NCBI GenBank assembly: GCA_934045905.1 | Contig: OW203768.1 | Span: forward strand, 11,188,316 to 11,252,315 | Reading direction: 5' to 3' | Length of the DNA: 64,000 bases | Source of the DNA: Leuctra nigra | Taxonomy: Eukaryota > Arthropoda > Insecta > Plecoptera > Leuctridae | Shown: one piece after another, positions 12,658-37,392 of the stretch | Position numbering within the stretch: the stretch's first letter is position 1 | Layout: every line of letters begins with the position of its first letter | Translations under genes and position numbers: made by a program | The notes under the pieces: generated by a model | What the model saw: only the letters and a program-made list of their open reading frames with translations | Told to the model about the DNA's origin: nothing | Databases searched by the model: none

Positions 12658-15600
12658 TTGGGACTGCGCAAGTGACAGCCCATGTCATGTAGTTCTGTCT
12701 CCATGCACTAGGTTCGTGCGCGAGGCCACGGGCTTCAACGTGGACATGCGCATTGGCATCCACACCGGCAACGTGCTCTGCGGCGTGCTGGGACTGCGCA
12801 AGTGACAGCCCATGTCATGTAGTTCTGTCTCCATGCACTAGGTTCGTGCGCGAGGCCACGGGCTTCAACGTGGACATGCGCATTGGCATCCACACCGGCA
12901 ACGTGCTCTGCGGCGTGCTGGGGCTGCGCCAGTGACAGCCCATGTCATGTAGTTCTGTCTCCATGCACTAGGTTCGTGCGCGAGGCCACGGGCTTCAACG
13001 TGGACATGCGCATTGGCATCCACACCGGCAACGTGCTCTGCGGCGTGCTGGGACTGCGCAAGTGACAGCCCATGTCATGTAGTTCTGTCTCCATGCACTA
13101 GGTTCGTGCGCGAGGCCACGGGCTTCAACGTGGACATGCGCATTGGCATCCACACCGGCAACGTGCTCTGCGGCGTGCTGGGACTGCGCAAGTGACAGCC
13201 CATGTCATGTAGTTCTGTCTCCATGCACTAGGTTCGTGCGCGAGGCCACGGGCTTCAACGTGGACATGCGCATTGGCATCCACACCGGCAACGTGCTCTG
13301 CGGCGTGCTGGGACTGCGCAAGTGACAGCCCATGTCATGTAGTTCTGTCTCCATGCACTAGGTTCGTGCGCGAGGCCACGGGCTTCAACGTGGACATGCG
13401 CATTGGCATCCACACCGGCAACGTGCTCTGCGGCGTGCTGGGGCTGCGCCAGTGACAGCCCATGTCATGTAGTTCTGTCTCCATGCACTAGGTTCGTGCG
13501 CGAGGCCACGGGCTTCAACGTGGACATGCGCATTGGCATCCACACCGGCAACGTGCTCTGCGGCGTGCTGGGACTGCGCAAGTGACAGCCCATGTCATGT
13601 AGTTCTGTCTCCATGCACTAGGTTCGTGCGCGAGGCCACGGGCTTCAACGTGGACATGCGCATTGGCATCCACACCGGCAACGTGCTCTGCGGCGTGCTG
13701 GGACTGCGCAAGTGACAGCCCATGTCATGTAGTTCTGTCTCCATGCACTAGGTTCGTGCGCGAGGCCACGGGCTTCAACGTGGACATGCGCATTGGCATC
13801 CACACCGGCAACGTGCTCTGCGGCGTGCTGGGACTGCGCAAGTGACAGCCCATGTCATGTAGTTCTGTCTCCATGCACTAGGTTCGTGCGCGAGGCCACG
13901 GGCTTCAACGTGGACATGCGCATTGGCATCCACACCGGCAACGTGCTCTGCGGCGTGCTGGGGCTGCGCAAGTGACAGCCCATGTCATGTAGTTCTGTCT
14001 CCATGCACTAGGTTCGTGCGCGAGGCCACGGGCTTCAACGTGGACATGCGCATTGGCATCCACACCGGCAACGTGCTCTGCGGCGTGCTGGGACTGCGCA
14101 AGTGACAGCCCATGTCATGTAGTTCTGTCTCCATGCACTAGGTTCGTGCGCGAGGCCACGGGCTTCAACGTGGACATGCGCATTGGCATCCACACCGGCA
14201 ACGTGCTCTGCGGCGTGCTGGGACTGCGCAAGTGACAGCCCATGTCATGTAGTTCTGTCTCCATGCACTAGGTTCGTGCGCGAGGCCACGGGCTTCAACG
14301 TGGACATGCGCATTGGCATCCACACCGGCAACGTGCTCTGCGGCGTGCTGGGACTGCGCAAGTGACAGCCCATGTCATGTAGTTCTGTCTCCATGCACTA
14401 GGTTCGTGCGCGAGGCCACGGGCTTCAACGTGGACATGCGCATTGGCATCCACACCGGCAACGTGCTCTGCGGCGTGCTGGGACTGCGCAAGTGACAGCC
14501 CATGTCATGTAGTTCTGTCTCCATGCACTAGGTTCGTGCGCGAGGCCACGGGCTTCAACGTGGACATGCGCATTGGCATCCACACCGGCAACGTGCTCTG
14601 CGGCGTGCTGGGACTGCGCAAGTGACAGCCCATGTCATGTAGTTCTGTCTCCATGCACTAGGTTCGTGCGCGAGGCCACGGGCTTCAACGTGGACATGCG
14701 CATTGGCATCCACACCGGCAACGTGCTCTGCGGCGTGCTGGGACTGCGCAAGTGACAGCCCATGTCATGTAGTTCCGTCTCCATGCACTAGGTTCGTGCG
14801 CGAGGCCACGGGCTTCAACGTGGACATGCGCATTGGCATCCACACCGGCAACGTGCTCTGCGGCGTGCTGGGACTGCGCAAGTGACAGCCCATGTCATGT
14901 AGTTCTGTCTCCATGCACTAGGTTCGTGCGCGAGGCCACGGGCTTCAACGTGGACATGCGCATTGGCATCCACACCGGCAACGTGCTCTGCGGCGTGCTG
15001 GGACTGCGCAAGTGACAGCCCATGTCATGTAGTTCTGTCTCCATGCACTAGGTTCGTGCGCGAGGCCACGGGCTTCAACGTGGACATGCGCATTGGCATC
15101 CACACCGGCAACGTGCTCTGCGGCGTGCTGGGGCTGCGCAAGTGACAGCCCATGTCATGTAGTTCTGTCTCCATGCACTAGGTTCGTGCGCGAGGCCACG
15201 GGCTTCAACGTGGACATGCGCATTGGCATCCACACCGGCAACGTGCTCTGCGGCGTGCTGGGACTGCGCAAGTGACAGCCCATGTCATGTAGTTCTGTCT
15301 CCATGCACTAGGTTCGTGCGCGAGGCCACGGGCTTCAACGTGGACATGCGCATTGGCATCCACACCGGCAACGTGCTCTGCGGCGTGCTGGGGCTGCGCA
15401 AGTGACAGCCCATGTCATGTAGTTCTGTCTCCATGCACTAGGTTCGTGCGCGAGGCCACGGGCTTCAACGTGGACATGCGCATTGGCATCCACACCGGCA
15501 ACGTGCTCTGCGGCGTGCTGGGGCTGCGCAAGTGACAGCCCATGTCATGTAGTTCTGTCTCCATGCACTAGGTTCGTGCGCGAGGCCACGGGCTTTAACG

Positions 15601-18600
15601 TGGACATGCGCATTGGCATCCACACCGGCAACGTGCTCTGCGGCGTGCTGGGGCTGCGCAAGTGACAGCCCATGTCATGTAGTTCTGTCTCCATGCACTA
15701 GGTTCGTGCGCGAGGCCACGGGCTTCAACGTGGACATGCGCATTGGCATCCACACCGGCAACGTGCTCTGCGGCGTGCTGGGACTGCGCAAGTGACAGCC
15801 CATGTCATGTAGTTCTGTCTCCATGCACTAGGTTCGTGCGCGAGGCCACGGGCTTCAACGTGGACATGCGCATTGGCATCCACACCGGCAACGTGCTCTG
15901 CGGCGTGCTGGGGCTGCGCAAGTGACAGCCCATGTCATGTAGTTCTGTCTCCATGCACTAGGTTCGTGCGCGAGGCCACGGGCTTCAACGTGGACATGCG
16001 CATTGGCATCCACACCGGCAACGTGCTCTGCGGCGTGCTGGGGCTGCGCAAGTGACAGCCCATGTCATGTAGTTCTGTCTCCATGCACTAGGTTCGTGCG
16101 CGAGGCCACGGGCTTTAACGTGGACATGCGCATTGGCATCCACACCGGCAACGTGCTCTGCGGCGTGCTGGGGCTGCGCAAGTGACAGCCCATGTCATGT
16201 AGTTCTGTCTCCATGCACTAGGTTCGTGCGCGAGGCCACGGGCTTCAACGTGGACATGCGCATTGGCATCCACACCGGCAACGTGCTCTGCGGCGTGCTG
16301 GGACTGCGCAAGTGACAGCCCATGTCATGTAGTTCTGTCTCCATGCACTAGGTTCGTGCGCGAGGCCACGGGCTTCAACGTGGACATGCGCATTGGCATC
16401 CACACCGGCAACGTGCTCTGCGGCGTGCTGGGACTGCGCAAGTGACAGCCCATGTCATGTAGTTCTGTCTCCATGCACTAGGTTCGTGCGCGAGGCCACG
16501 GGCTTCAACGTGGACATGCGCATTGGCATCCACACCGGCAACGTGCTCTGCGATGTGCTGGGACTGCGCAAGTGACAGCCCATGTCATGTAGTTCTGTCT
16601 CCATGCACTAGGTTCGTGCGCGAGGCCACGGGCTTCAACGTGGACATGCGCATTGGCATCCACACCGGCAACGTGCTCTGCGGCGTGCTGGGACTGCGCA
16701 AGTGACAGCCCATGTCATGTAGTTCTGTCTCCATGCACTAGGTTCGTGCGCGAGGCCACGGGCTTCAACGTGGACATGCGCATTGGCATCCACACCGGCA
16801 ACGTGCTCTGCGGCGTGCTGGGACTGCGCAAGTGACAGCCCATGTCATGTAGTTCTGTCTCCATGCACTAGGTTCGTGCGCGAGGCCACGGGCTTCAACG
16901 TGGACATGCGCATTGGCATCCACACCGGCAACGTGCTCTGCGATGTGCTGGGACTGCGCAAGTGACAGCCCATGTCATGTAGTTCTGTCTCCATGCACTA
17001 GGTTCGTGCGCGAGGCCACGGGCTTCAACGTGGACATGCGCATTGGCATCCACACCGGCAACGTGCTCTGCGGCGTGCTGGGACTGCGCAAGTGACAGCC
17101 CATGTCATGTAGTTCTGTCTCCATGCACTAGGTTCGTGCGCGAGGCCACGGGCTTCAACGTGGACATGCGCATTGGCATCCACACCGGCAACGTGCTCTG
17201 CGGCGTGCTGGGACTGCGCAAGTGACAGCCCATGTCATGTAGTTCTGTCTCCATGCACTAGGTTCGTGCGCGAGGCCACGGGCTTCAACGTGGACATGCG
17301 CATTGGCATCCACACCGGCAACGTGCTCTGCGGCGTGCTGGGACTGCGCAAGTGACAGCCCATGTCATGTAGTTCTGTCTCCATGCACTAGGTTCGTGCG
17401 CGAGGCCACGGGCTTCAACGTGGACATGCGCATTGGCATCCACACCGGCAACGTGCTCTGCGATGTGCTGGGACTGCGCCAGTGACAGCCCATGTCATGT
17501 AGTTCTGTCTCCATGCACTAGGTTCGTGCGCGAGGCCACGGGCTTCAACGTGGACATGCGCATTGGCATCCACACCGGCAACGTGCTCTGCGGCGTGCTG
17601 GGACTGCGCAAGTGACAGCCCATGTCATGTAGTTCTGTCTCCATGCACTAGGTTCGTGCGCGAGGCCACGGGCTTCAACGTGGACATGCGCATTGGCATC
17701 CACACCGGCAACGTGCTCTGCGGCGTGCTGGGACTGCGCAAGTGACAGCCCATGTCATGTAGTTCTGTCTCCATGCACTAGGTTCGTGCGCGAGGCCACG
17801 GGCTTCAACGTGGACATGCGCATTGGCATCCACACCGGCAACGTGCTCTGCGGCGTGCTGGGACTGCGCAAGTGACAGCCCATGTCATGTAGTTCTGTCT
17901 CCATGCACTAGGTTCGTGCGCGAGGCCACGGGCTTCAACGTGGACATGCGCATTGGCATCCACACCGGCAACGTGCTCTGCGGCGTGCTGGGGCTGCGCA
18001 AGTGACAGCCCATGTCATGTAGTTCTGTCTCCATGCACTAGGTTCGTGCGCGAGGCCACGGGCTTCAACGTGGACATGCGCATTGGCATCCACACCGGCA
18101 ACGTGCTCTGCGGCGTGCTGGGACTGCGCAAGTGACAGCCCATGTCATGTAGTTCTGTCTCCATGCACTAGGTTCGTGCGCGAGGCCACGGGCTTCAACG
18201 TGGACATGCGCATTGGCATCCACACCGGCAACGTGCTCTGCGGCGTGCTGGGGCTGCGCAAGTGACAGCCCATGTCATGTAGTTCTGTCTCCATGCACTA
18301 GGTTCGTGCGCGAGGCCACGGGCTTCAACGTGGACATGCGCATTGGCATCCACACCGGCAACGTGCTCTGCGGCGTGCTGGGGCTGCGCAAGTGACAGCC
18401 CATGTCATGTAGTTCTGTCTCCATGCACTAGGTTCGTGCGCGAGGCCACGGAATTCAACGTGGACATGCGCATTGGCATCCACACCGGCAACGTGCTCTG
18501 CGGCGTGCTGGGACTGCGCAAGTGACAGCCCATGTCATGTAGTTCTGTCTCCATGCACTAGGTTCGTGCGCGAGGCCACGGAATTCAACGTGGACATGCG

Positions 18601-21600
18601 CATTGGCATCCACACCGGCAACGTGCTCTGCGGCGTGCTGGGGCTGCGCAAGTGACAGCCCATGTCATGTAGTTCTGTCTCCATGCACTAGGTTCGTGCG
18701 CGAGGCCACGGGCTTTAACGTGGACATGCGCATTGGCATCCACACCGGCAACGTGCTCTGCGGCGTGTTGGGGCTGCGCAAGTGACAGCCCATGTCATGT
18801 AGTTCTGTCTCCATGCACTAGGTTCGTGCGCGAGGCCACGGGCTTCAACGTGGACATGCGCATTGGCATCCACACCGGCAACGTGCTCTGCGGCGAGCTG
18901 GGGCTGCGCAAGTGACAGCCCATGTCATGTAGTTCTGTCTCCATGCACTAGGTTCGTGCGCGAGGCCACGGGCTTCAACGTGGACATGCGCATTGGCATC
19001 CACACCGGCAACGTGCTCTGCGGCGTGCTGGGGCTGCGCAAGTGACAGCCCATGTCATGTAGTTCTGTCTCCATGCACTAGGTTCGTGCGCGAGGCCACG
19101 GGCTTCAACGTGGACATGCGCATTGGCATCCACACCGGCAACGTGCTCTGCGGCGTGCTGGGACTGCGCAAGTGACAGCCCATGTCATGTAGTTCTGTCT
19201 CCATGCACTAGGTTCGTGCGCGAGGCCACGGGCTTCAACGTGGACATGCGCATTGGCATCCACACCGGCAACGTGCTCTGCGGCGTGCTGGGACTGCGCA
19301 AGTGACAGCCCATGTCATGTAGTTCTGTCTCCATGCACTAGGTTCGTGCGCGAGGCCACGGGCTTCAACGTGGACATGCGCATTGGCATCCACACCGGCA
19401 ACGTGCTCTGCGGCGTGCTGGGGCTGCGCCAGTGACAGCCCATGTCATGTAGTTCTGTCTCCATGCACTAGGTTCGTGCGCGAGGCCACGGGGTTCAACG
19501 TGGACATGCGCATTGGCATCCACACCGGCAACGTGCTCTGCGGCGTGCTGGGACTGCGCAAGTGACAGCCCATGTCATGTAGTTCTGTCTCCATGCACTA
19601 GGTTCGTGCGCGAGGCCACGGAATTCAACGTGGACATGCGCATTGGCATCCACACCGGCAACGTGCTCTGCGGCGTGCTGGGACTGCGCAAGTGACAGCC
19701 CATGTCATGTAGTTCTGTCTCCATGCACTAGGTTCGTGCGCGAGGCCACGGGCTTCAACGTGGACATGCGCATTGGCATCCACACCGGCAACGTGCTCTG
19801 CGGCGTGCTGGGACTGCGCAAGTGACAGCCCATGTCATGTAGTTCTGTCTCCATGCACTAGGTTCGTGCGCGAGGCCACGGGCTTCAACGTGGACATGCG
19901 CATTGGCATCCACACCGGCAACGTGCTCTGCGGCGTGCTGGGACTGCGCAAGTGACAGCCCATGTCATGTAGTTCTGTCTCCATGCACTAGGTTCGTGCG
20001 CGAGGCCACGGGCTTCAACGTGGACATGCGCATTGGCATCCACACCGGCAACGTGCTCTGCGATGTGCTGGGACTGCGCAAGTGACAGCCCATGTCATGT
20101 AGTTCTGTCTCCATGCACTAGGTTCGTGCGCGAGGCCACGGGCTTCAACGTGGACATGCGCATTGGCATCCACACCGGCAACGTGCTCTGCGGCGTGCTG
20201 GGACTGCGCAAGTGACAGCCCATGTCATGTAGTTCTGTCTCCATGCACTAGGTTCGTGCGCGAGGCCACGGGCTTCAACGTGGACATGCGCATTGGCATC
20301 CACACCGGCAACGTGCTCTGCGGCGTGCTGGGGCTGCGCAAGTGACAGCCCATGTCATGTAGTTCTGTCTCCATGCACTAGGTTCGTGCGCGAGGCCACG
20401 GGCTTCAACGTGGACATGCGCATTGGCATCCACACCGGCAACGTGCTCTGCGGCGTGCTGGGACTGCGCAAGTGACAGCCCATGTCATGTAGTTCTGTCT
20501 CCATGCACTAGGTTCGTGCGCGAGGCCACGGGCTTCAACGTGGACATGCGCATTGGCATCCACACCGGCAACGTGCTCTGCGGCGTGCTGGGACTGCGCA
20601 AGTGACAGCCCATGTCATGTAGTTCTGTCTCCATGCACTAGGTTCGTGCGCGAGGCCACGGGCTTCAACGTGGACATGCGCATTGGCATCCACACCGGCA
20701 ACGTGCTCTGCGGCGTGCTGGGACTGCGCAAGTGACAGCCCATGTCATGTAGTTCTGTCTCCATGCACTAGGTTCGTGCGCGAGGCCACGGGCTTCAACG
20801 TGGACATGCGCATTGGCATCCACACCGGCAACGTGCTCTGCGGCGTGCTGGGACTGCGCAAGTGACAGCCCATGCCATGTAGTTCTGTCTCCATGCACTA
20901 GGTTCGTGCGCGAGGCCACGGGCTTCAACGTGGACATGCGCATTGGCATCCACACCGGCAACGTGCTCTGCGGCGTGCTGGGACTGCGCAAGTGACAGCC
21001 CATGTCATGTAGTTCTGTCTCCATGCACTAGGTTCGTGCGCGAGGCCACGGGCTTCAACGTGGACATGCGCATTGGCATCCACACCGGCAACGTGCTCTG
21101 CGGCGTGCTGGGGCTGCGCAAGTGACAGCCCATGTCATGTAGTTCTGTCTCCATGCACTAGGTTCGTGCGCGAGGCCACGGGGTTCAACGTGGACATGCG
21201 CATTGGCATCCACACCGGCAACGTGCTCTGCGATGTGCTGGGACTGCGCAAGTGACAGCCCATGTCATGTAGTTCTGTCTCCATGCACTAGGTTCGTGCG
21301 CGAGGCCACGGGGTTCAACGTGGACATGCGCATTGGCATCCACACCGGCAACGTGCTCTGCGGCGTGCTGGGACTGCGCAAGTGACAGCCCATGTCATGT
21401 AGTTCTGTCTCCATGCACTAGGTTCGTGCGCGAGGCCACGGGCTTCAACGTGGACATGCGCATTGGCATCCACACCGGCAACGTGCTCTGCGGCGTGCTG
21501 GGACTGCGCAAGTGACAGCCCATGTCATGTAGTTCTGTCTCCATGCACTAGGTTCGTGCGCGAGGCCACGGGCTTCAACGTGGACATGCGCATTGGCATC

Positions 21601-23592
21601 CACACCGGCAACTTGCTCTGCGGCGTGCTGGGGCTGCGCAAGTGACAGCCCATGTCATGTAGTTCTGTCTCCATGCACTAGGTTCGTGCGCGAGGCCACG
21701 GAATTCAACGTGGACATGCGCATTGGCATCCACACCGGCAACGTGTTCTGTGGCGTGCTGGGGCTGCGCAAGTGACAGCCCATGTCATGTAGTTCTGTCT
21801 CCATGCACTAGGTTCGTGCGCGAGGCCACGGGGTTCAACGTGGACATGCGCATTGGCATCCACACCGGCAACGTGCTCTGCGATGTGCTGGGACTGCGCA
21901 AGTGACAGCCCATGTCATGTAGTTCTGTCTCCATGCACTAGGTTCGTGCGCGAGGCCACGGGCTTCAACGTGGACATGCGCATTGGCATCCACACCGGCA
22001 ACGTGCTCTGCGGCGTGCTGGGACTGCGCAAGTGACAGCCCATGTCATGTAGTTCTGTCTCCATGCACTAGGTTCGTGCGCGAGGCCACGGGGTTCAACG
22101 TGGACATGCGCATTGGCATCCACACCGGCAACGTGCTCTGCGGCGTGCTGGGACTGCGCAAGTGACAGCCCATGTCATGTAGTTCTGTCTCCATGCACTA
22201 GGTTCGTGCGCGAGGCCACGGGCTTCAACGTGGACATGCGCATTGGCATCCACACCGGCAACGTGCTCTGCGGCGTGCTGGGACTGCGCAAGTGACAGCC
22301 CATGTCATGTAGTTCTGTCTTATGCACTAGGTTCGTGCGCGAGGCCACGGGCTTCAACGTGGACATGCGCATTGGCATCCACACCGGCAACGTGCTCTGC
22401 GGCGTGCTGGGACTGCGCAAGTGACAGCCCATGTCATGTAGTTCTGTCTCCATGCACTAGGTTCGTGCGCGAGGCCACGGGCTTCAACGTGGACATGCGC
22501 ATTGGCATCCACACCGGCAACGTGCTCTGCGGCGTGCTGGGACTGCGCAAGTGACAGCCCATGTCATGTAGTTCTGTCTCCATGCACTAGGTTCGTGCGC
22601 GAGGCCACGGGCTTCAACGTGGACATGCGCATTGGCATCCACACCGGCAACGTGCTCTGCGGCGTGCTGGGACTGCGCAAGTGACAGCCCATGTCATGTA
22701 GTTCTGTCTCCATGCACTAGGTTCGTGCGCGAGGCCACGGGCTTCAACGTGGACATGCGCATTGGCATCCACACCGGCAACGTGCTCTGCGGCGTGCTGG
22801 GACTGCGCAAGTGACAGCCCATGCCATGTAGTTCTGTCTCCATGCACTAGGTTCGTGCGCGAGGCCACGGGCTTCAACGTGGACATGCGCATTGGCATCC
22901 ACACCGGCAACGTGCTCTGCGGCGTGCTGGGACTGCGCAAGTGACAGCCCATGTCATGTAGTTCTGTCTCCATGCACTAGGTTCGTGCGCGAGGCCACGG
23001 GCTTCAACGTGGACATGCGCATTGGCATCCACACCGGCAACGTGCTCTGCGGCGTGCTGGGACTGCGCAAGTGACAGCCCATGTCATGTAGTTCTGTCTC
23101 CATGCACTAGGTTCGTGCGCGAGGCCACGGGCTTCAACGTGGACATGCGCATTGGCATCCACACCGGCAACGTGCTCTGCGGCGTGCTGGGGCTGCGCAA
23201 GTGACAGCCCATGTCATGTAGTTCTGTCTCCATGCACTAGGTTCGTGCGCGAGGCCACGGGCTTCAACGTGGACATGCGCATTGGCATCCACACCGGCAA
23301 CGTGCTCTGCGGCGTGCTGGGACTGCGCAAGTGACAGCCCATGTCATGTAGTTCTGTCTCCATGCACTAGGTTCGTGCGCGAGGCCACGGGCTTCAACGT
23401 GGACATGCGCATTGGCATCCACACCGGCAACGTGCTCTGCGGCGTGCTGGGACTGCGCTAGTGACAGCCCATGTCATGTAGTTCTGTCTCCATGCACTAG
23501 GTTCGTGCGCGAGGCCACGGGCTTCAACGTGGACATGCGCATTGGCATCCACACCGGCAACGTGCTCTGCGGCGTGCTGGGGCTGCGCAAGT
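12658..23592 (+). repeat. About 84-copy tandem array of a 130-bp exon-intron junction unit from the cyclase gene
   Basis: The unit length is 130 bp throughout, except for one unit with a 1-bp deletion near 22320. Each unit holds 40 bp of intron-like sequence (gtgacagccc...ccatgcactag) followed by 90 bp identical to the start of the genuine exon at 23501. That exonic part encodes [19 protein letters not shown]... to ...GVLGLRK of the C1a domain. Every unit but the last then reads aagTGA where the true exon reads aagTGG, so the cyclase frame stops unless spliced. Units differ at only a few recurrent sites (gga/gggctg, ggcttc/gaattc/gggttc, cggcgtg/cgatgtg, cgcaag/cgccag), indicating very recent amplification or strong homogenisation. 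The array begins with a partial unit at about 12658 and merges into the real exon. All 60-residue open frames in it use a non-ATG start in a shifted frame and are not genes. Confidence 0.95.
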
Positions 23593-23792
23593 GGCAGTTC
23601 GACGTGTGGAGTGATGACGTCACTCTCGCGAACCACATGGAGTCCGGCGGAGTTCCAGGAAGAGTTCACATCACCTTGGCGACGCTCGGACAGCTGGGGG
23701 ACAGGTTCCAGGTGGAGCCGGGGGAGGGAGGCTCCAGGGAGGGGTACCTCCAGGACCACAAGGTGGAGACGTATCTCATTATACCGCCGGCG
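23501..23792 (+). CDS. Ac76E: Cyclase exon a: C-terminal C1a
   Basis: Acceptor catgcactag before 23501 and donor ggcg|gtgagt after 23792. The first base completes a codon from the upstream exon; 97 codons follow and the exon ends in phase 0. It encodes [39 protein letters not shown] and ends [12 protein letters not shown]. This is the final, genuine copy of the 130-bp unit, recognised by aagTGGcag in place of aagTGAcag. The penultimate unit differs in having gcgcTAG at 23456-23460. Confidence 0.93.
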
Positions 23793-26700
23793 GTGAGTAC
23801 TGGAGCAGAAGTGGCGACACCTAGTGGGTAATAAACACAATGCATCTACATTTGAAATTACAACATGCTACAGAGACCTCATAGATTCCTAGACTTGATT
23901 TTGTGGTACATTATACATTTGATAAAAAAGACATGAGATAATGAAGTGATTTAAAAAAAATTAATTCAGGTGATTTTCCAGATCTATACTGTGTATATTT
24001 AAGGTGATATTTGACAGGTCACAAAGGAGACCCCACTGGGGTACTTTGGTACATTATCTGGTATAAGTAATTATAATTTTTGATCTGCGTTATCACTTAC
24101 CCAATACTTAAGTACCCAATTACTTGTATTTTGTTAAGAGCCAAGAGAAGTATCTGCAATATCTCTCCTAAATGGTCACTGAGCGATACGAAATGGTGAA
24201 AGTTTACCTTCCAGTAACAATCTCATTAGAAGTGAATGAGGTATAACATATTAGGCATATTTTCTTACAGCCCTAATTGGCATTTTATCATACCAGACAT
24301 AGATATCTGGTTCCCCTGACGCCCCCTCCCCTCCCCCCTCCCACACATATGACAAGAATGATAGGTTGTATAATTTCACAGTCAGAGTGTACCTACGTAA
24401 ATTGAACTAAGTTTCCAGTTTGTTCATAAAATCGTTCAAAATCAACTCAACAACCCTACTTTCTTATTACCATAAACATTTCAGTACTTCCAAAAGTCAC
24501 CGTATTTCAAACTTTCTTAATATAACAACCAATTAGTGTATATCATAAAATCAAGATCAATTTCTCTTCAGAATCTCCTTTAACTTAAGTTTTTGTTATT
24601 ACTAACGAAGGTATGGGGGGTCTGGTAAATGAGCATAAGTTTGGAGACTTTTTGAATTGATGCGAGAGTTTTCCAAAGTTTCGAACTTTGTTAATTTATT
24701 AGTTTGAAATTGCTAACCTCAGCTCTCTATACTCCAGTTATCCGCAACAAAGATGAAGTTGACAACGTGTCGTGATATTTTATTATAACTACACTCGGTT
24801 GTCTCTCTAAGCGATAACGATGCTTTTGTGATTTGTTTACATTGTTTTGTTAGCTTTGGGAATTTATAATTTTCAGCTTACTCATTTGTTAGGAATGAGT
24901 TTCTGTATTGATATAGTTATAATTTTTTTTAAATGTATAGCACTAATTATAGTATTGCTTGAAAGAAACATAATAATTAGTAATATCGAAAAACGTTGGT
25001 GTAATTGCATATATTGAGGTTTGTTCGATTGGTTTTCAATTTAGCGATTGTTTTACCTTAAATAAATGATTTCTTTGATATAGTAAACAAGTTTTCTTAT
25101 ATTACCTATAAGAGACCAAATTGAACATTATGTTTCACGTAAAACTTTCTATGCTCCGTTCCTAACTATACTGTGTAACCGCATAGCGTTGTCACTTATT
25201 TTAACTAATACGATTTGCGAGTACATGATCAGTCCAGATACAAAATAGTGTACAATATGGATATTGTCGGTACTTTTCTACCATTTGGAGATATAAGACT
25301 GTGATATATGATATGTTGCAGAAAGTGGAGGCTAAGGACGAGGAAAAGAACGGGGAGCCCGGGGGAGGGGGGTTGAAGACGGAGGAGTCCTTGGCCTTGA
25401 GGAACCGCTCCCCCAGCAAGATGACCAAGTACGTGGAGTGCTGGGGAGCCGACAAACCCTTCGCCAACATTGCGGAGACTACCCTGGCCAAGAACATCGG
25501 TCTCACGGTGAGAACAACCTCATACGTCATGGAATATACGTCATTGAGCTAGTACTGAAAGTAAAAGGCGGAAGTGAAAGTGGAAGTCAATTTTCGCGAT
25601 TTTGCGTTGCAAACTTTTGGAATTATGTTATCAAGCACAATCAATTGCCATTTGACTGATGTCAACAAATACTGTTACCTATATTGAAGTATTCTCTTAC
25701 ACAATTACTCATATGATTTGATCAAGTCATAATTACTGGTTTTCTGAACTTAAGAATCATTGAAATTTACTTCCGCCCTTCTACCTCTGAAATACTGAAT
25801 TGTATTTTGCATGGACTTTTCAAATGGAATGAAAAATATTTCAAAATCTACTCTTTGCTGAAAATTAAGCCACAAATATTAACACTCCAAATTAGTGATT
25901 AGATTTACAAATTAATTAATCATGTAAGGGAAAATTTGATGACAAAATAAGCTTTCAACAAAATACATTGAAATTAAACAATTATGTTTTACGATCATAG
26001 CAGCTATAGGCTATGATTATAATTATGATCATTTCTTGGAAATGAGTTCGTCGGTTCTACCTAAAGTTAGAGGCAAAGCCTCTATAAATAAGTAATGTTG
26101 TGATGGAAACTTGTTGTTTCAGAGCTACTCCATGATCGAGTCCAACCTGTTGCCCAGCGAGAACACGTGTCTGGAATGCAAGTGAGTTCGATCAAGTTGT
26201 TCAGTCTTAAAGTTCAGTTCAGTTGTTTAGTCTAGCGTTTCTGTAAATTCAACCGCGGGGTTTTAATTAAGATAAGTAATATTGTGGAAGCGGAGCCCGC
26301 ATAAAACTCAAGCTCTTTTGTGCGTGTGTTGTGAACATTTCTATTCACAACTGGAGCCCCCAATAAATTCACGGGGCTAAGAATCATCGTATAAAATATA
26401 AAGTAATTGAGCGGACGTACCTTTTGACTTGTTTGCTGGGTTTAGATTGTTGTTTACAATTTTTCGTTGTTGGTGAGATACAGGTCCGAACGTTTGCTCC
26501 GATCAAGCTGAAATTTTGCATACATGTAGGGTTCACTTGTCCGATTAGCTATATAGTTTTTAAACAAAATCTCCTGATTGGTTGCAAAACCAGAATATAT
26601 GTATAAGTTTTGAATTTAGCAGACTAAAAAGACCATAGATTCTATCGTGTTTTCAAAATTAAAGCAAAATTGGTTAAAGTTTTAGCAAATATTAAAGTTC

Positions 26701-29700
26701 AAGATCGCTTTATGTCGAATCTAAACATGTTCTGACATGTTGACAGGAAGGGGCTGAGCTCCGAGGACTTGAATCCTGTCCTGCTGTGGTTCAGGAAGTC
26801 TAAACATGAACAGGAATACCGCAACCAGCCCGACCCGCAGTTCAAGTACTACATCATCTCCGCGGTGGCCCTGTTCCTGTGCATGGCGATCATCCAGATC
26901 ATCTCCATTCCAAGGTCAGTTGATCCTTTGGGAGCAGAAATCATTCGTGATGTAGCTACATTTTACTTGACACCATGGAATGCAACACAACTTTTAAGCA
27001 AAATTTCAACCAAAGCGTCAAGATAGTTAGTTAGCTGTAGTTGATGTACGAGGTATATTAATGGGAATGTTGGTTACTCCGACATAATGAAAATGTTTAT
27101 AGAGAATGGAGGAAACATAAAATAAAAATATTCGTTCTTCAAAACGTTGCAAGAAATTATTTACTTTTAAAGAACAGACAGACGTTTGTGAATGGTAAAC
27201 GGAAGACACATAATATTTCTTCTTTATTTGAATAGAAACAAATGAGCGTCGTTGGAAGAAAAACTGTATTTTTTCTTCGTTCCACAGAGGTAATTCTTTT
27301 ACTTCGGATGTACAATGTCCCGATAATGTTAGCGGTAGGATTTATCAGTTGTAACCTAAGTTTGAAACCTTAGCAGTCTAGATGGCTGTGTTTCATTGGC
27401 TGTTGCCATGGTTTCAACTGATAAATCCTACCGCTAACTTTATCGGGACATTGTAAAATCGAAGTAAAAGAATTATACGTTTGTGGAATGAAGACAAATA
27501 AAAGTTTTACTATGAGAACATTTTCTGATGCAAGATGCCTATACAAATTAATAGATGCTGACAAAGTGATATGTGAAACAAATTGGCAATGTTCAAAAGT
27601 CTTAACACCGATCTGAACGGCCACTGTTCTTGCAGCGGCATCGTGCTGTGGGGGTCGTACGGCGCCACCCTCATCGCCCTCCTCGTGTTCGTCTACCTGT
27701 GCTGGCTGGAGGGTTGCCGCGACGCCGGCCGACGGGACTCGGAGACGCCCAGCGGCGTCAGCGACGGCGGCGGCGGCCAAGTGGTCAGCGGGAGTCGGTG
27801 GCTCAGGCTCATCGTCTTCGTCGTCGCCGTCACGCTCATTGCAGTCTGTCCAGTCATCACGCTGGCAAGTTCATGCGTTGCGGACGAGTGGCACACATAC
27901 TACTTACTTGTCTTGTCTTGCGGACGAGTGGCCCACATACCACTTGTCTTGCGGACGAGTAGCCTACCGACTACTTACTTTCCAAAGTTTTGGACGAGTG
28001 GCTTTAATTTATACATCTTTCTTCAAACTAAAATAAAGACTACATTTGTAAATAAATGTTGTAAAATACACAGAATAGCTATCAATAAAATAATACATTC
28101 ATTGATATAACATAAGTGAAAATGATTAATGATTGAACAGAATTGGAAAAGCTAACTAACAACTAATTACTATAACAATGGTTTCTAAATATTTGAATTG
28201 AACCCTTTAGGGGCAATAAAACTATATAAATGATCGTTGAACTTAACTTTGAATAGCTATTGCGAAGTGACTAAGGTAGTTGCAGCGATACCGTTGTGGA
28301 AAGCCGACTGGCACTTACAGTTTGACTTAATATTTCGATCATTAGAACGAGAAAAAAGAATATTATCTATCTATATAAAAGCAAAACTCTTAATTTCTTG
28401 TTATTTGTTTTCAGTTTCACAGGGACCAAAATTTTATTTAAATGCAAAATCGCGAAACCTAATTGGTTTATTAGAAACTTTAACATAATAAAGTGAAGTT
28501 TGGTCAACTGAAGTTGTAAAAAGGCATACTCTTCTCAATAAATGAAGCCATAGATTTGAAATAATTTTGAAGTAATTTCCATGAAATATTTCTGTAAGTT
28601 TCTCCACATCAATTGCTAAAGTAAAGTCATGATCTATTCCAAGAAGACGCTCAAAGTGTTTCTTCAGCTGTAACATTGTCCTTCTTCCACAGCTGGACGT
28701 GGAAGACTCGGTGACGCCGACGACCTCCCCCGAGGACGTCGTCAACGCGACGGCGGAGGACGTCGTCGGCACGACGCTGATGATCATCGACCCCGCCCCG
28801 ACGTTCGAGGTCGAGGTCATCAACTCCGTGCCGGTGAGTTCAAGGTCACAGGGTCAATGAGGGGAAACCAATTACTTTTGTATCCCACACCTGACACCAA
28901 ATGTAGTGGGATTATATTTTAGTTCTAGAGGCTTTTCTGTTATTTAATTAAGCAGAAGGCTTTGGATTGCATGGGTTAAATGCATAACGTTACAGAATCA
29001 TATTAATGAGAATGTCTGCCCCTCAATGGTAGAAAGGCGGAAGTCCATTTTCTCGATTTTGCTTTGCACACTTTTGGATCTAGTTAAGCTCTTTCGACTT
29101 ATTGAAATAAATATTCTGTTACACAATGACTGTCAAGAGTGGGTAATTATAATGTGAATTATAATGGGTTTTGCATGGTTGAGTTTATGGGCCTTCTGAG
29201 ATCTGGAGTGTCCTAGTTTATCCCGCCGGGCATTCTGGATATTTAACACTTTAAACATGAAACTACGGCGGTACAAACGTTGTCATAACTTATACTTTAT
29301 TTTGGTTAGTTGTTCTTCCGACTCCGAGGGGCGTTTCACACTTTGTGGATGGAGAGTGGCCGAAAGTGTAGTAATGTTTTTTGTTCTGTTCTCTTTAAAG
29401 TTCCCTTATTTCGAACATTTCAGTGCATGTTTCGTAATACTAATGAAATATTTTGGCAGACATTCGTAGTTTTTAAGTTTGTATTCAAGTTCAAAATCTG
29501 TGTCTCTTTGCATTGGGTTACACGCATTTTCATCTTCAATTTAAAAGCATTTAGGTCGTATATTGTGATTGTATTATTATACATTATAAACTTAACAATT
29601 GTGTCTTATAATTTCTAAAATAAACTCTCCTCTTTTCGAATCTTATTGTGAGGCGTGCGGTTCAACGCCAGCCACATAGGCAGTGCCTAGGCAGTGTCTC

Positions 29701-32700
29701 ACTAAACCCCGCCTATTCTCAGTCGTACCTGTACGGCTCCGTGCTGTCGCTGGCGGCCACCTCCATGTTCCTGCGCGTCGGCTTCCTGCTCAAGCTGTTC
29801 CTGATGCTGGCGACGGTGGCGGTGCACGTCAACCTCTTTGCCACGACGCCCAACGTCTTCGAGAAGTACTACGAGCTGCACGAGGACGGGTGAGTGCCGT
29901 CGTTGATTCCCAAAAGTATGAACAACAACTTTTTACTTGGAGAAGGACCCTCGTTTAATAAAAATAATGATTCTGGATCTCAATATTTTATATTTAACGA
30001 CGGTCCTTTCGCGACTAAAAGTTTCTGTAACGCCACCAAGTGTAAAAAATTAACATCTTGAGGTAATAGTGCAACTCTATTGCGCATGGGCACGGCACTC
30101 GAATGTCATGAAAACGTATTCAGTACGTAAAAGTCAAATTAAATCGTGAAATATCATACATTGATGCGTACCTCTGTACCAACCTATACAATTAAATATA
30201 ATAAACATATTTCATTACAACACACATTCATTCATATTCTTACAAAAACTAGATGTTTATTCACCAAAAGCAACATTTTGACCGATTGCTAATGTTTTGA
30301 TCACGGACTTCTGAACGAGGCGTGAAGAACACTGATGCTCGAATTCAATCTTCAGCCATCTTCTTTCACTAGCGCATTCTACTCTACTGGTACTTAGGGT
30401 CAAATTAGGAAAGTACTATAGTATAGTGACCCGCAGTCGATCTGTGGATTGGGATTTTCTTGAAAAACAGGTATTTTACGAACCCCTTAGCGAGCTCAAC
30501 CCAAGAGAAGGCTCGGCATAAACAATGGGGCATGGTGCGCACGCAGGTAAAGTAGGGGACGGGAAAGTAAAAAGACCCTTTTCCAATCCACAGATCGACT
30601 GCGGATGACTATAGTAGCATCACTCTATGACACCTTTCACTTCCTCCGACTGAATCGTGAAGTGAAAGATTCGAAGAGTGTCAAAGGTTGGTCAAGAGAG
30701 GGTTGAAATGTTTCCGAGATATCGGTCTTGTCAGTGGTGTGGGTCCGCGGCGTGAGAGAGTCGCAGCAAGTGAAGGTGTCTCAGCTCTGAGCGAGAGAGT
30801 CGCAGCAAGTGAAGTGAAACTCGTGTTCCAGCTTTGCCGCCCTCCCCGTGCTGCTCAAGGTCGCCGTGCTGCTGGTCGTGTTCGTCGTCCTCCTCCACGC
30901 ACTGGACAGACAGATCCCTGTGTCAGTCGCAGCAAGTGAAGGGAGACTATGTTCCAGCTTCGCCGCCCTCCCCGTGCTGCTCAAGGTCGCCGTGCTGCTG
31001 GTCGTGTTCGTCGTGCTCCTCCACGCCCTGGACAGACAGATCGAGTTCACGTCGCGCACCGACTACCTGTGGAAGGCGAAGCTGAAGGTGGAGCAGGAGG
31101 AGGTGGAGACGATGAGGGGAATCAACAAGATCCTCCTCGAGAACATTCTGCCCGCGCACGTGGCGGAGCACTTCCTGGAGAAGAGGAGCTCGCAGGTGAG
31201 TGACGTCATCACTGTCATTGACATTTTAACATTATCGTGCAGAATAGCACTTCAATCATTTGATCTCCTTGTATTCTCGAATAAATTTATTTCCCCCAGC
31301 TCTTATATAACAAAATTATGTTCGGACACTTTTTGATTATTATGATAGATAGAGTCTGGTCTATCGTGGATGATTTGGAACAATATGGATTTCTAACATG
31401 AACTAAATATAGTACATAAATTTGCTAATTTTTTAAGGTACCAATGTTCAAAGTACAACAGTATCTACTTTACAAACCACGAAAATGATTAACAGAATTA
31501 AGGCATATGCACTAATTTTACGGCTTAACTTACAATATCATGGGACATTTCAGTTAAAAGCTGTCAAAACGAATCAACATCCCAAGAAATCGAACCTTTT
31601 TATGTGGATTCTATACCCATTCTCACGTGTTAAAATTTATCAATTGGTTCTATTCCTTTAGCTATCAGACCAGATAGACACTGACTGTCTATTTATACCT
31701 TGCATCTAAATCCCAATCTTACTATTATTTTCCCAAGAGATGTCATCAGTGTTTTGTCTGTCTTGATTCTTGAGCGAGCTCTGATTGGTTGTACAGGAGC
31801 TGTACCACGAGAGATACAGCTGCATCGCCGTCATGTTCGCGTCGATCCCCAACTACAAGGAGTTCTACGACGAGAACGACGTCAACAAGCAGGGGCTGGA
31901 GTGTCTCAGACTCCTCAACGAGATTATCTGCGACTTCGACAAGGTGAGGGCAGGGCAGGGCAGGGCAGGGCAGGGCAAGGGTATTTATCTGATTGCATTT
32001 TTTTTTATCTTTTACACACATTTATTTTTTTGAAAAGTGCATGTGATTCTGTTGTACATGTCAGTGTTAACAAAACTTTTTTTTTAATGTTAACCCTTCC
32101 TGAAAAATATTATGAGGTATCAGAAAATAAAAAAGTAAATAAAAATAATTTGAGAAGAGAAGAAGAAGTTTTGAGAACTTCATGAAGAAGTTTGATGTTG
32201 GATGATTTTCTTGATATGCATGCGCATATAGGAACAAAATTTGCAAGGGGAGGATAATATTGTAAAACTAGGAAAACGCTCAGTGTAACGCGTTGATGAG
32301 CGAGCACGGGTACGTGCAAATTCTCGAACCGGAAATGCGTACACAACGCACAGAAAACATATACATCCATATGGAATTGATTATGATATCAACTTAAAAG
32401 TGTATGCTTTTCATCGAAACTTTAAAATAGCATCTAAGCACCTGGTTCATAAAGCAAATCAGAAACAATTTTCAATTGGCACTGGAAAACATTCATTTCG
32501 ATACTTCATTACTGACAGATATTAAAAATGTAAATAACTTCATACGTTCTTAACTGATTGGGATGAAATTTTGTAAAATAAGAGACAATATTGGTCTTAA
32601 TGATCATGCAAAATATGAGTTTGATCAGAATTATCGAAGACCGTTTTCATTTTTCAGCCTATCAGGAGATATTTATTTAAATTTTAACCAATGAATCTGA

Positions 32701-35700
32701 GTAACGCGTTGATGAGCGAGCACGGATACGCGCAACACCTCGAACCGAAATTCTGTCTATCGAAAATGTCATTAAAAGCCAATAATTCTAAAATTTCGCC
32801 ACAGATTTGTATAGAAATCTCAAAACATTCCTAAAATATTGGTCCAAATAACCATGCAAAGCTTTAAGTTGATCAATTGAACCTTTATGATTGAACTGTT
32901 CCGTGTTAATTTTCAAAAATCACAGGATCTCCTTCAATAAATATACCTGAGACCACTCATATGATATAAGTGTGTCTACACAATATCAGATCGACTGTTG
33001 AACGGTCATTATCAGTTTCATTTGCGTTTGAAAGTTTCTGCTCTAACTACCTTGCCTTGAACTGAAGAGTCGAAGTCGCCGTGAATTTGACAGCCAACAC
33101 GCTAATAGTCCGTAAAATGTCAATAACGTTTGGATTTAAACACAGATTAGTATGAAAATTGTCAAAAATGCAGATAATGTTGGACCCAACCATCATGCGA
33201 AGTTATAAGTTGATCGTTCAATCGGTTATAGTTTAAATTTCTAAAAACACAGGAAAGATGGTTTTAAATTTTAACCAATGGGAGGATTTGGCTGAAACTT
33301 TGTTTGATTGGGTACAATGTTGGGGGTAATGACTTGTCAAAATTTCAATTTGATCAAAACAACCAATCGAAAGTTAATTTTTTTTAAATTTGAACCAATC
33401 AATGGATTTCAAAAAAATTAGGGTCTGCAACAATCAGAAATGTTACGTACATGTGTGCAAAATTTCAGCTCGATCGAAGAAAAACTCTGACCTGTATATC
33501 GTCAGTAACAGAAAAAAAAAAAAACAAACAAAAAAAAAAACAGAGGTCCGTGCCAAAAGAGCCAAATGGAGACGCTCGCTTCGCTCGCTCAATAAATTGA
33601 GCTGGAGATACTAGTGTCTACGAAGACAATGGGGGGGTCTGGGGGGTGGGCCCCCCAGCGAAATGCGGTTCGGGGTGCACAGCCTGAGAAACATTTTGAA
33701 TTTCAGGCATGAATTTGTAGTATTAATACGCGATTTTAACACTTTTTAAGCATATTTTTATCTTGACATATAAATGTACTACCTATATGAACATAGTGTG
33801 GGGAATGGAATCAGGAGGGGGTCCCCCATCCCCCTCCCCCTCCTACGCACCTCTAGATATGTAAATGATGATCGATGTATGAGGCAACTGCCAACTGATG
33901 TGTGTTTTGTCTGCAGTTGCTGCTGAAACCCAAGTTCAGCGGCATCGAGAAGATCAAGACCATCGGCAGCACCTACATGTTAGCGTCGGGGCTGCGGCCG
34001 GGCAAGGAGGACGGCGGAGGGGTGAGACGTTTAGCTGTACACTTGCACTTGATAGGGATAATAGTTGATAAATAATAGAAGATCAAGACTATCGGCAGCA
34101 CCTACATGTTAGCGTCGGGGCTGCGCCCGGGCAAGGAGGACGGCGGAGGGGTGAGACGTTTAGCTGTACACTTGCACTTGATAGGGATAATAGTTGATAA
34201 ATAATAGAAGATCAAGACTATCGGCAGCACCTACATGTTAGCGTCGGGGCTGCGGCCGGGCAAGGAGGATGGCGGAGGGGTGAGACAATTAGCCGTACAC
34301 TGATAGTAATAATAGTTGTGATTTCAATGCAAATGTCTTACAGAGTTACTCTAGCTAGGCTCTCTAACTCTAGCCATTTAGAAGATCATTACAAAAGATT
34401 GATTGAAAGAAGCTGAAAATATAATATCTTCAAATCAATTTATACTAATCTAATGATGTACTATTTCTTTCTTATGTCTAACAGGATGAAGCGAAGGTTG
34501 GTTAAATTTGATTCAGTTAAAAGTAGAGATATGAACTACGAGAGAAAAGGAGAACCGCACAACCCCAGTCCACACAAAATGCCCTTATATTTACCTACTC
34601 GAAGATTCTATTCCTCTTCTCTCGGGTGTATCATAGCACAAAGTTCATTACAATTTATTTTTATTTCGTGGAAACCAAAAACATATGTTTTTAGGCAGTA
34701 TGTTTACAGATAATATGATAACACAATGCAGCAAAATGTTGTTTAAAATATTGATACAGATTATCTTCATAAAATCAAATTGTTATGTGCATGATGTAGT
34801 TTGACATAAGTTATTTACCTTTTTATTTATTAATTGATTTACAGCTTAAATAATAATTATTTGTTAGTATGATAATGACAATGTATAGCGTTGAACGTAC
34901 TGATGAATGTTGCAGGACGTATTGAAGCAGCAAGAGCACAACGTCCTCGCGCTCGTCGAGTTCGCCGTCGCTCTCATGACGATCCTGGACCAGATCAACC
35001 GCGAGTCGTTCCAGCGGTTCAAGCTGCGCGTGGGTCTGAACCACGGGCCGGTGATCGCCGGCGTGGTCGGCGCGCAGAAGCCGCAGTACGACATCTGGGG
35101 CAACACGGTCAACGTGGCCAGCCGCATGGACAGCTGCGGCATGATGGGCAGGATGCAGGTCAGAGAACCAAATACTTTCGAATATGTCCAAATTTGATCA
35201 TTTTATTTTTTCAAGTTGTTTTGTTTATTTCATTATTTACTGTCATCCTACTTTTCAACACAAAATTAAACACATTATCTATCTACATATAGAGAGAAAT
35301 AAAATATTCATAAATGGGCTTTATTTAATTTTGAACTGTTAAAACATTAAATTCGTGCCCATAAAATGTATACATTTTCTTAAATTGGTAATATTTAAAA
35401 AATAATACTCTTTTATATACATTTCAAAAATTATAATTTTTAAAAACATATGTACTACATGTAATTTTTTTATGTTTTCATGATTTTATATCACTTCTTT
35501 TGTTAAATGAAATAGTACATTTCATGCTTGTGAAATTGTAAAAATTGTGAAATTGTCTGTATATTCAAAAATCATTTTTTTTCTATTTATGACTGAGGAT
35601 AAGATTATTGACAAGATTCTCAATTATTCATAGTTCTGGAATTTTTGGAATCATACGCAGTTCTATTTGGTATTCTGTAAGATTTGCAATGTCAATTTGC

Positions 35701-35882: not shown

Positions 35883-37392
35883 TCTCGTCGCTCGTCGCTA
35901 GATAGATATATTGTCATCTGGCAGTCTTCTTCATTGCTTCGTCCGATTCACACGTTACGCTTCAAAACAAGTAAACGAGCATCGTGGCTTGATGAGAGCT
36001 CATTTCTACTTGTACAGAACTAGATGTTCAACAACTAAATGATGAAATAGACAAAAGTTTATTCTCTTACCATCATGTCTCAAATTACCATAGTGTAAAG
36101 ACATCATAATGTTTTAATAAATGTACAAAATATTGCAAATAGTGACAAAATATTAATGTAAAATGAATTTACATGTTTCTGATCTTGGATGAGCACAATT
36201 CTTGTGTGATAAATAATTGCCAATGAATATTTCATCAAAATCTGATTAAAATGTGTCAATTACCTACTGAAAGCCTAAGGATGGCCCTACAGTTGGCTGA
36301 CGGCAAAACTCAGTAAAACACGTAAAACCTATGTAAGTATATTCATGATGTAATTGCTTTCTTTTACATTGTCTACGTCATTCCACACGTTGTCGTTAAA
36401 CCCGGTTTTTCAAGCCTGATGGTTTCATAGCTTCAATATTTTCATAGTTTCAGATTTACCATTGAATGAAAGACTTTGGAAAAAAATAAGTCTAACTTAA
36501 GTGGGTATTAACTATTAATTATAAAAATCGCCAGTAACGCAGAATCGGATTTTAAGAAAAGCACCGTAAATTAAACCACACACTAATATTGAATCCGTGC
36601 TAAAGTTTCAATGGAACGAAGCAATGAAGAATGGCTTTATTCACTAGTTTTCAAATTTTCTCTCTGTCCTTTCATCTCTTTGTCTTCATCATCGTGGTGT
36701 CTCCATGTCTGTCTGTCTGCTCCTACGCAATAATTGTGATGTTACATATCAATCAGAGTAAATAATAAACTAGATATTATTTCCCATTATCAACTTTTGA
36801 GCCATGAATCAAAAATGTAAATAGATTGTATATTTTATTTATTTGCTGTGGTAACTGCAGCTCTGCAGTATTTTGATTATACCTGACATTTCTTTGTTTT
36901 TGTATTATATTATGATGTGGATGAGTGTGATTTTTTTTAAAAGTGTAATTGTGATTCAGTTTTAGAAAATAAACAAGAGTACATTTTAATTGGTATCTAT
37001 CTATAGACAGAAATAATTTGTTACACACACAACCCAAATTTTCCTCAACTTCCTCCATCCTTCCTTGCCTACTTACTTATTCAATGATTTAAAATATTGC
37101 CGCCTTTTCTTCAATTTCTTATTTGGTTTGTTGGTAACTTGGTTTTGTTGGCAAGACTGATTTGTGAGAGAAGAGCAACAAGTTTTTCCCGCGTGATTTT
37201 TTCTTTTTAGCAATAATAATCAATAATATATATAAAAAGAGATATAAAAGCAACTCGAAATTGTATTAGGTGTATGTTGTGTAATACGAGAAGTTATTTT
37301 AATTTATTGACCTCTTTTGAAGAGATAGTTGACGTAAACAGACTTCTGCGCGTACATAACCTCGAACTGTCAAAACGACACTTGTTTCTCAA
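35883..37392 (+). other. Cyclase 3' UTR and intergenic space to the Ctf8 gene
   Basis: Candidate poly(A) signals AATAAA on the + strand occur at 36116-36121 and again near 36764 and 36969; which is used is unknown. No other gene seen. The Ctf8 start lies 1.5 kb from the cyclase stop, same strand. Confidence 0.6.

Follow-up and report, generated by a model that had tools for sequence, protein, structure and literature searches.

Splice-junction minisatellites of up to 84 copies at exon borders of an adenylyl cyclase gene in the stonefly Leuctra nigra

An intron–exon border of an adenylyl cyclase gene in the stonefly Leuctra nigra is repeated in tandem for 10.9 kb directly in front of the exon to which it belongs, here called E1. 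The gene lies in a stretch of 64,000 nt (the window; GenBank assembly GCA_934045905.1, contig OW203768.1, positions 11,188,316 to 11,252,315, forward strand). The array is most probably a very large ‘mirage’, i.e. a minisatellite that has the gene's own intron–exon border as its unit, has grown by slippage or unequal exchange, and loses its surplus copies from the transcript together with the intron. Positions are window coordinates unless a contig is named; C7 is the contig holding the window, on which E1 starts at C7:11211816 (window 23501), and C3, C8 and C1 are other chromosomes or contigs of the same assembly. The array is described as follows.

12659..23597, plus strand: acceptor-type junction array, 130 bp x 84.2 copies (Tandem Repeats Finder, TRF; 84 anchors; unit types)

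TRF gives 99% matches and reports this one array at the locus. The unit joins ∼35–40 nt of intron end, acceptor included, to the first 90–97 bases of the exon. The anchor GTTCGTGCGCGAG occurs 84 times, at a spacing of 130 bp in 82 of the 83 intervals and of 129 bp in one; an intact CACTAG stands directly 5′ of it in 84/84 copies, and the acceptor TAG|GTTCGT is likewise kept in all 84. The first copy is partial. The last, at 23501, is the real exon start and alone continues into the exon, as far as 23792, giving 83 decoy acceptors and one real acceptor. An earlier note on this DNA had placed about 84 tandem 130-bp units at 12658–23592, each with the intron 3′ end and its acceptor and only the last running on into the C1a exon of an adenylyl cyclase; the repeat boundaries, the anchors, the continuation at 23501 and, for the exon, matches to adenylate cyclase chains in the PDB together with the spliced frame bear this out. 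Its word ‘identical’, used there of the acceptor sites beside ‘near-identical’ for the units, goes a little too far, since the 83 full units comprise 18 sequence types, 44 of the 83 being identical. The mean is 0.78 mismatches to the consensus per unit (82 units of 130 bp). There are 16 substitution variants, and a single unit lacks one base. Units >99% identical over 10.9 kb lie far outside what chance would give.

Over 97 nt the majority unit agrees with the real exon except at two positions, a synonymous GGA for GGG and a change of TGG to TGA. In the cyclase frame this stop lies 30 codons past the acceptor of a decoy, and the TGA is invariant in all units. Among the unit variants are replacements of glycine by aspartate and of valine by glutamate, and a stop. 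No clear coding constraint on the units emerged (5/12 events synonymous, P 0.17–0.28; by sites 7/14, P 0.04–0.09), and their predicted RNA structure was no better than that of shuffled sequences (z 0.03).

Judged by its sequence, the host gene is an insect AC76E/ADCY2-type adenylyl cyclase. Fifteen exons were mapped, twelve in the window and three upstream of it.

23501..23792, plus strand: exon E1, covering the second half of C1a (cyclase domain); the last array copy supplies its first 97 bases (spliced frame; PDB adenylate cyclase chains)
25322-25507, plus strand: exon E2 (spliced frame; tblastn with relatives)
26123-26181, plus strand: exon E3 (spliced frame; tblastn with relatives)
26747-26914, plus strand: exon E4 (spliced frame; tblastn with relatives)
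27636-27864, plus strand: exon E5, ending at a GC donor (spliced frame; tblastn with relatives)
28693-28833, plus strand: exon E6 (spliced frame; tblastn with relatives)
29723-29889, plus strand: exon E7 (spliced frame; tblastn with relatives)
30958..31195, plus strand: exon E8, real copy (spliced frame)
31797..31943, plus strand: exon E9 (spliced frame)
33917..34021, plus strand: exon E10, C2a (spliced frame)
34916-35158, plus strand: exon E11 (spliced frame)
35754-35882, plus strand: exon E12, with stop (spliced frame)
C7:11163454-11163557: exon E-3, upstream of the window (extends the same frame)
C7:11178441-11178552: exon E-2, upstream of the window (extends the same frame)
C7:11183372-11183499: exon E-1, upstream of the window (extends the same frame)

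E1–E12 (23501–35882) join in phase to a 700-residue frame with a terminal stop, and the fifteen exons together stay open up to one stop at the very end; only the real copies give an intact frame. Among proteins, Periplaneta americana adenylate cyclase type 2 matches best, with 74% identity over the whole query (3134 hits; 7994 candidates scored). In a tree of 29 proteins, the window cyclase clusters with sequences of cricket, locust, cockroach and termite (100/98), all members of Polyneoptera, the cockroach and termite proteins being nearest, weakly (80/72). E-1 and E1 join as AG|G, an arginine codon, as in the relatives compared. The intron between them (C7:11183500-11211815) measures 28.3 kb, of which the array makes up 10.9 kb. 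Residues 1–225 of a relative found no match at E 1e-4 within the 324 kb examined. Over E1–E12 the GC content is 62% in exons and 35% in introns, giving a sharp step in composition at each border. Among the 11 donors of the gene inside the window, only that of E5, CTG|GCAAGT (27864/27865), departs from GT, and an AGGGC x6 repeat (31947–31977) begins 4 bases past the E9 donor.

Besides E1, four further borders of this gene are duplicated, the acceptors of E8 and E-1 and the donors of E10 and E-3, which brings the affected exons to 5 of the 15 mapped. Two of these duplications lie in the window.

30798..31042, plus strand: E8 acceptor-type duplication, two copies 126–127 bp apart (self-BLAST 94%, alignment, frame)
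33948..34301, plus strand: E10 donor-type array, 129 bp x 2.7, the first copy being the end of E10 (TRF, alignment)

The E8 duplication is absent from the TRF list and was found by self-BLAST; its first, extra copy, with an acceptor before 30832, has no stop and keeps the frame; its inclusion would lengthen the protein by 42 residues. The E10 array holds three GGAGGG|GTGAGA donors, at 34022, 34151 and 34280. At E-1 the acceptor array is 124 bp x 4.0 at 100% identity, its last copy being real. The donor array of E-3 has units of ∼98–102 bp and consists of 9.3 copies and, 4.4 kb further on, 8.6 more, with 9 donor motifs per block. Between the blocks sits a ∼4.4-kb element (C7:11164420-11168824) with inverted ends ACTCGGCC...GGCCGAGT and GTAC flanks; because this inserted element splits the array, the E-3 array is older than the insertion and hence not brand new. 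At the seam of the E-3 unit, CAAACAGACACGC of the exon is also present after the AAAC run of the intron (shared sequence). A separate array of 27 bp x 22 (C7:11162828-11163426) stops 27 bases short of the E-3 acceptor. On C3, a cyclase-domain gene, which from its motifs we take to be a soluble guanylate cyclase, carries an acceptor array of 120 bp x 19.0 whose last copy runs into the exon. The real border is a terminal copy in these arrays, standing last on the acceptor side (E1, E-1 and the C3 cyclase gene) and first on the donor side (E10 and E-3).

Such arrays probably originated in an initial tandem duplication spanning the border, followed by expansion and homogenization through slippage or unequal exchange. 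At E1 the interspersed, recombinant unit types fit local exchange in a real array: at seven pairs of variable positions every one of the four possible combinations occurs, and units at lag 4 are more alike than shuffles (P 0.013, 15 lags tested), those at lags 10 and 12 being less alike. Extra copies enclosed by the donor upstream and the final acceptor would be spliced out with the intron, and the array would thereby persist; under this scheme the real copy is expected to be the last on the acceptor side and the first on the donor side. The decoys would be skipped by exon definition, a full exon and a strong donor following the last acceptor alone. On a splice matrix built from 11 donors and 12 acceptors, whose scores are crude, the best donor within an E1 unit reaches 4.8 and the GT directly after the unit acceptor (GTTCGT) 0.9, against 7.8–12.6 for the ten GT donors of the gene and 1.3 for its GC donor. 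With donors this weak inside the unit, exon definition would favour the terminal copy.

Several observations weigh against a mirage of silent decoys. The real E1 acceptor scores −2.6, which ranks it second from the bottom among 12; a different AG of the unit reaches 3.0. The differences in the exon parts of the E8 and E10 copies are synonymous in 6/6 cases (P 0.0004–0.001, post hoc), which silent decoys do not predict and which might reflect an origin as alleles, gene conversion by the real exon or translation from time to time. Nor does tolerance alone account for the preference of the large arrays for borders, as it should extend equally to purely intronic ones.

Use of the units as exons would account for the open E8 copy. 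Each E1 unit would then provide a 90-nt in-frame exon (AG|GTTC...CAA|GTGACA) separated from the next by a 40-nt spacer, intron gain would be under way, and 30 residues per unit could be added. The distance between the acceptor and CAA|GTGACA is indeed 90 nt, with equal phase at both ends, and the score of this donor (4.8) exceeds that of the gene's own GC donor. A precedent exists in a potato gene, where an intron arose from a duplicated intron–exon segment whose new donor was taken from exon sequence (PMC4974935). The same donor is nonetheless weaker than all ten GT donors of the gene, variant units carry the two amino acid replacements and the stop given above, and homologues are without such a repeat, which makes this reading improbable. 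Recursive splicing, in which a chain of sites, each an acceptor followed by GT, would remove the 28-kb intron stepwise, draws on TAG|GT in 84/84 units and on the length of the intron before E1. The process is known from long fly introns, and the E1 units resemble fly ratchet points in both respects; they differ in their many near-identical tandem sites, in the coding sequence after each and in the weak regenerated donor, since GTTCGT (0.9 versus 7.8–12.6) falls short of the usable donor that marks a ratchet point. The GT after the unit acceptor is simply the exon's own start, and we regard a recursive chain as very improbable.

An equally small chance attaches to an inflation of few copies by the assembler. 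The identity of 44 of the 83 full units and the length of the array would suit such an error, HiFi reads being on the order of 10.9 kb. The longest exact repeat in the array, however, is 836 bp, one unit type never runs for more than five units, and the repeated blocks of unit types reach a length of 6 against a shuffle mean of 5.4 and a 95th percentile of 7, so that the types are interspersed and not looped; separate arrays of other units are present in the same assembly. This assembly (ipLeuNigr2.1) comprises 536.3 Mb built from 32-fold HiFi reads with a QV (consensus quality value) of 57.2 (PMC10280035). A collapsed or inflated assembly is unlikely as the source of the E1 array because of the 836-bp limit on exact repeats, the interspersed unit types and this QV. 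The analysis covers one haplotype; the alternate one is deposited as GCA_934046545.1. Long homogeneous arrays are also a hallmark of satellites, and a dispersed satellite or mobile element might have acquired an exon edge before inserting. This is scarcely credible, as each array is built from a border of its own host gene, with the real exon as a terminal copy. Among the matches listed, the E1 unit occurs elsewhere as just 49 nt at 90% on C8, where the cyclase domain matches too; this is weak evidence, coming from a search that skips common words and missed the array itself.

Mirages were described in lancelets as minisatellite-like duplications of intron–exon borders (PMC3087553, PMC3902484). 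The lancelet globin gene BflGb6 has units of 150–160 bp, 6 in one haplotype and 3 in the other, either border can be hit, and reverse transcription PCR suggested undisturbed splicing (PMC3087553); the PGBD5 paper adds cases of 60 and 108 bp and cites Adh and TnC (PMC3902484). The stonefly arrays share the main features of mirages: units span a splice border (at E1, E8, E10, E-1, E-3 and the C3 cyclase exon), acceptor and donor sides are both affected with the real border as one terminal copy, and clusters evolve in concert, here visible as 18 types in 83 units, recombinant combinations and likeness between lagged units. The differences are that the host is an insect and not a cephalochordate, that 84 and 114 copies compare with 6 and 3 in BflGb6, and that a single gene has five affected borders mapped. 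For the lancelet arrays there are also reports on splicing and on length, which can differ between haplotypes or somatically; the stonefly arrays are described here from genomic sequence. By anatomy, they belong to the mirage kind and differ from the known cases in taxon, copy number and affected borders per gene. The earlier note had called the E1 array unusual, and so it is, though its kind had been described in lancelets and further arrays exist in the same gene and in a neighbour. The consequences that the note suggested, namely changes in acceptor choice, a slower polymerase, copy-number variation and aberrant or circular RNA, stand as conjectures. A search of the open-access literature surfaced no insect case of border arrays, although such a case may still exist.

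The arrays also recall intron gain by tandem duplication, where the duplicated segment contains AG|GT, as in 84/84 stonefly units. Rogers' original model reportedly has a purely exonic unit, which the stonefly unit is not, and a fission yeast case is said to involve 24-bp AGGT repeats. Closer is the potato RdRp gene, where the duplicated piece was an intron–exon segment (PMC4974935). The stonefly arrays differ from the intron-gain cases in that they have many more copies and that a gained intron is a hypothesis here.

Arrays of this kind extend to a neighbouring minus-strand gene, whose exons were read by eye, without homology search. This gene has an array of 138 bp x 114 (15.7 kb; C7:11076430-11092166), the last copy of which opens into an exon-like frame that is single in two similar adjoining genes, and an array of 47 bp x 10 containing GTAAGT donors (both within C7:11076430-11093923). 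Unit length is 98–138 bp in 7/8 of the arrays and duplications described. Of other repeats on C7, an array of 68 bp x 40.5 (C7:11137715-11140437) is bordered on the left by a minus-strand frame that is open, and a repeat of 45 bp x 9.5 (C7:11321168-11321596) within a long open minus-strand frame is a coding repeat, possibly of a transposon-related protein. Beside the cyclase gene, a SET-domain exon matching PF00856 (63129-63416, minus strand), presumably of an EZH2-like gene, has no array of period at least 24 listed.

Within 324 kb, 6 of the 11 arrays with a period of at least 24 and at least 4 copies lie on exon borders of the cyclase gene or its neighbour, the second E-3 block being entered as 102 x 8.6. 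Across the 60.7-kb cyclase span, 4/5 arrays are on borders (P 5e-6 under random placement), with the E-3 blocks merged, E10 (2.7 copies) admitted, E8 excluded and the criteria chosen after the data were seen. A looser test over 23590–35900, with the period left free, placed 2/5 arrays near a border (P 0.31). Surveys of protein families by coordinates, in which rows are matches, only the best candidates were scored and short copies can escape, yielded a border array at 1/403 matches outside the cyclase gene. For PF00211, 82 rows represent 63 distinct matches and 19 further array copies; arrays occur at 3/63 (E1, known from the window, E-1 and C3), or 1/58 without the window cyclase gene. Short-period arrays were found at 0/95 matches for PF00209, 0/132 for PF00069, 0/25 for PF00856 and 0/93 for PF00063, leaving aside seven copies of one myosin-head exon 0.4–0.6 kb apart (C1:19366964-19370357), which are probably alternative exons of the kind known from insect muscle myosin. 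Two stretches with seven cyclase matches had no array on any matched exon, one of them holding a 65-bp x 2 duplication ∼0.3 kb past a cyclase match, and just an 8-bp repeat was seen around the cyclase exon on C8. Border arrays thus occur on two chromosomes, yet they seem clustered, given 1/403 elsewhere, and the cyclase neighbourhood looks like a hot spot. The border excess points to a mutational bias at exon edges.

With 83 near-identical decoys before the one real copy, and in a signalling gene that is conserved, the E1 array amounts to a natural experiment on site choice by the spliceosome, in which the acceptor's own sequence cannot decide which site is picked. With borders at 2 to 84 copies in one gene, intron gain by tandem duplication can be put to a direct test. 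Because a coding stretch of the catalytic domain sits within a homogenizing satellite, array variants could convert into the coding exon. It is tempting, if speculative and on balance doubtful, to propose that a mutational process in this stonefly favours exon–intron borders of some loci and makes splice-junction satellites with up to 114 junctions per working exon, the decoys being skipped by robust exon definition. Were this so, such a border-directed process would keep supplying new introns, in-frame duplications of exons and splice variants.

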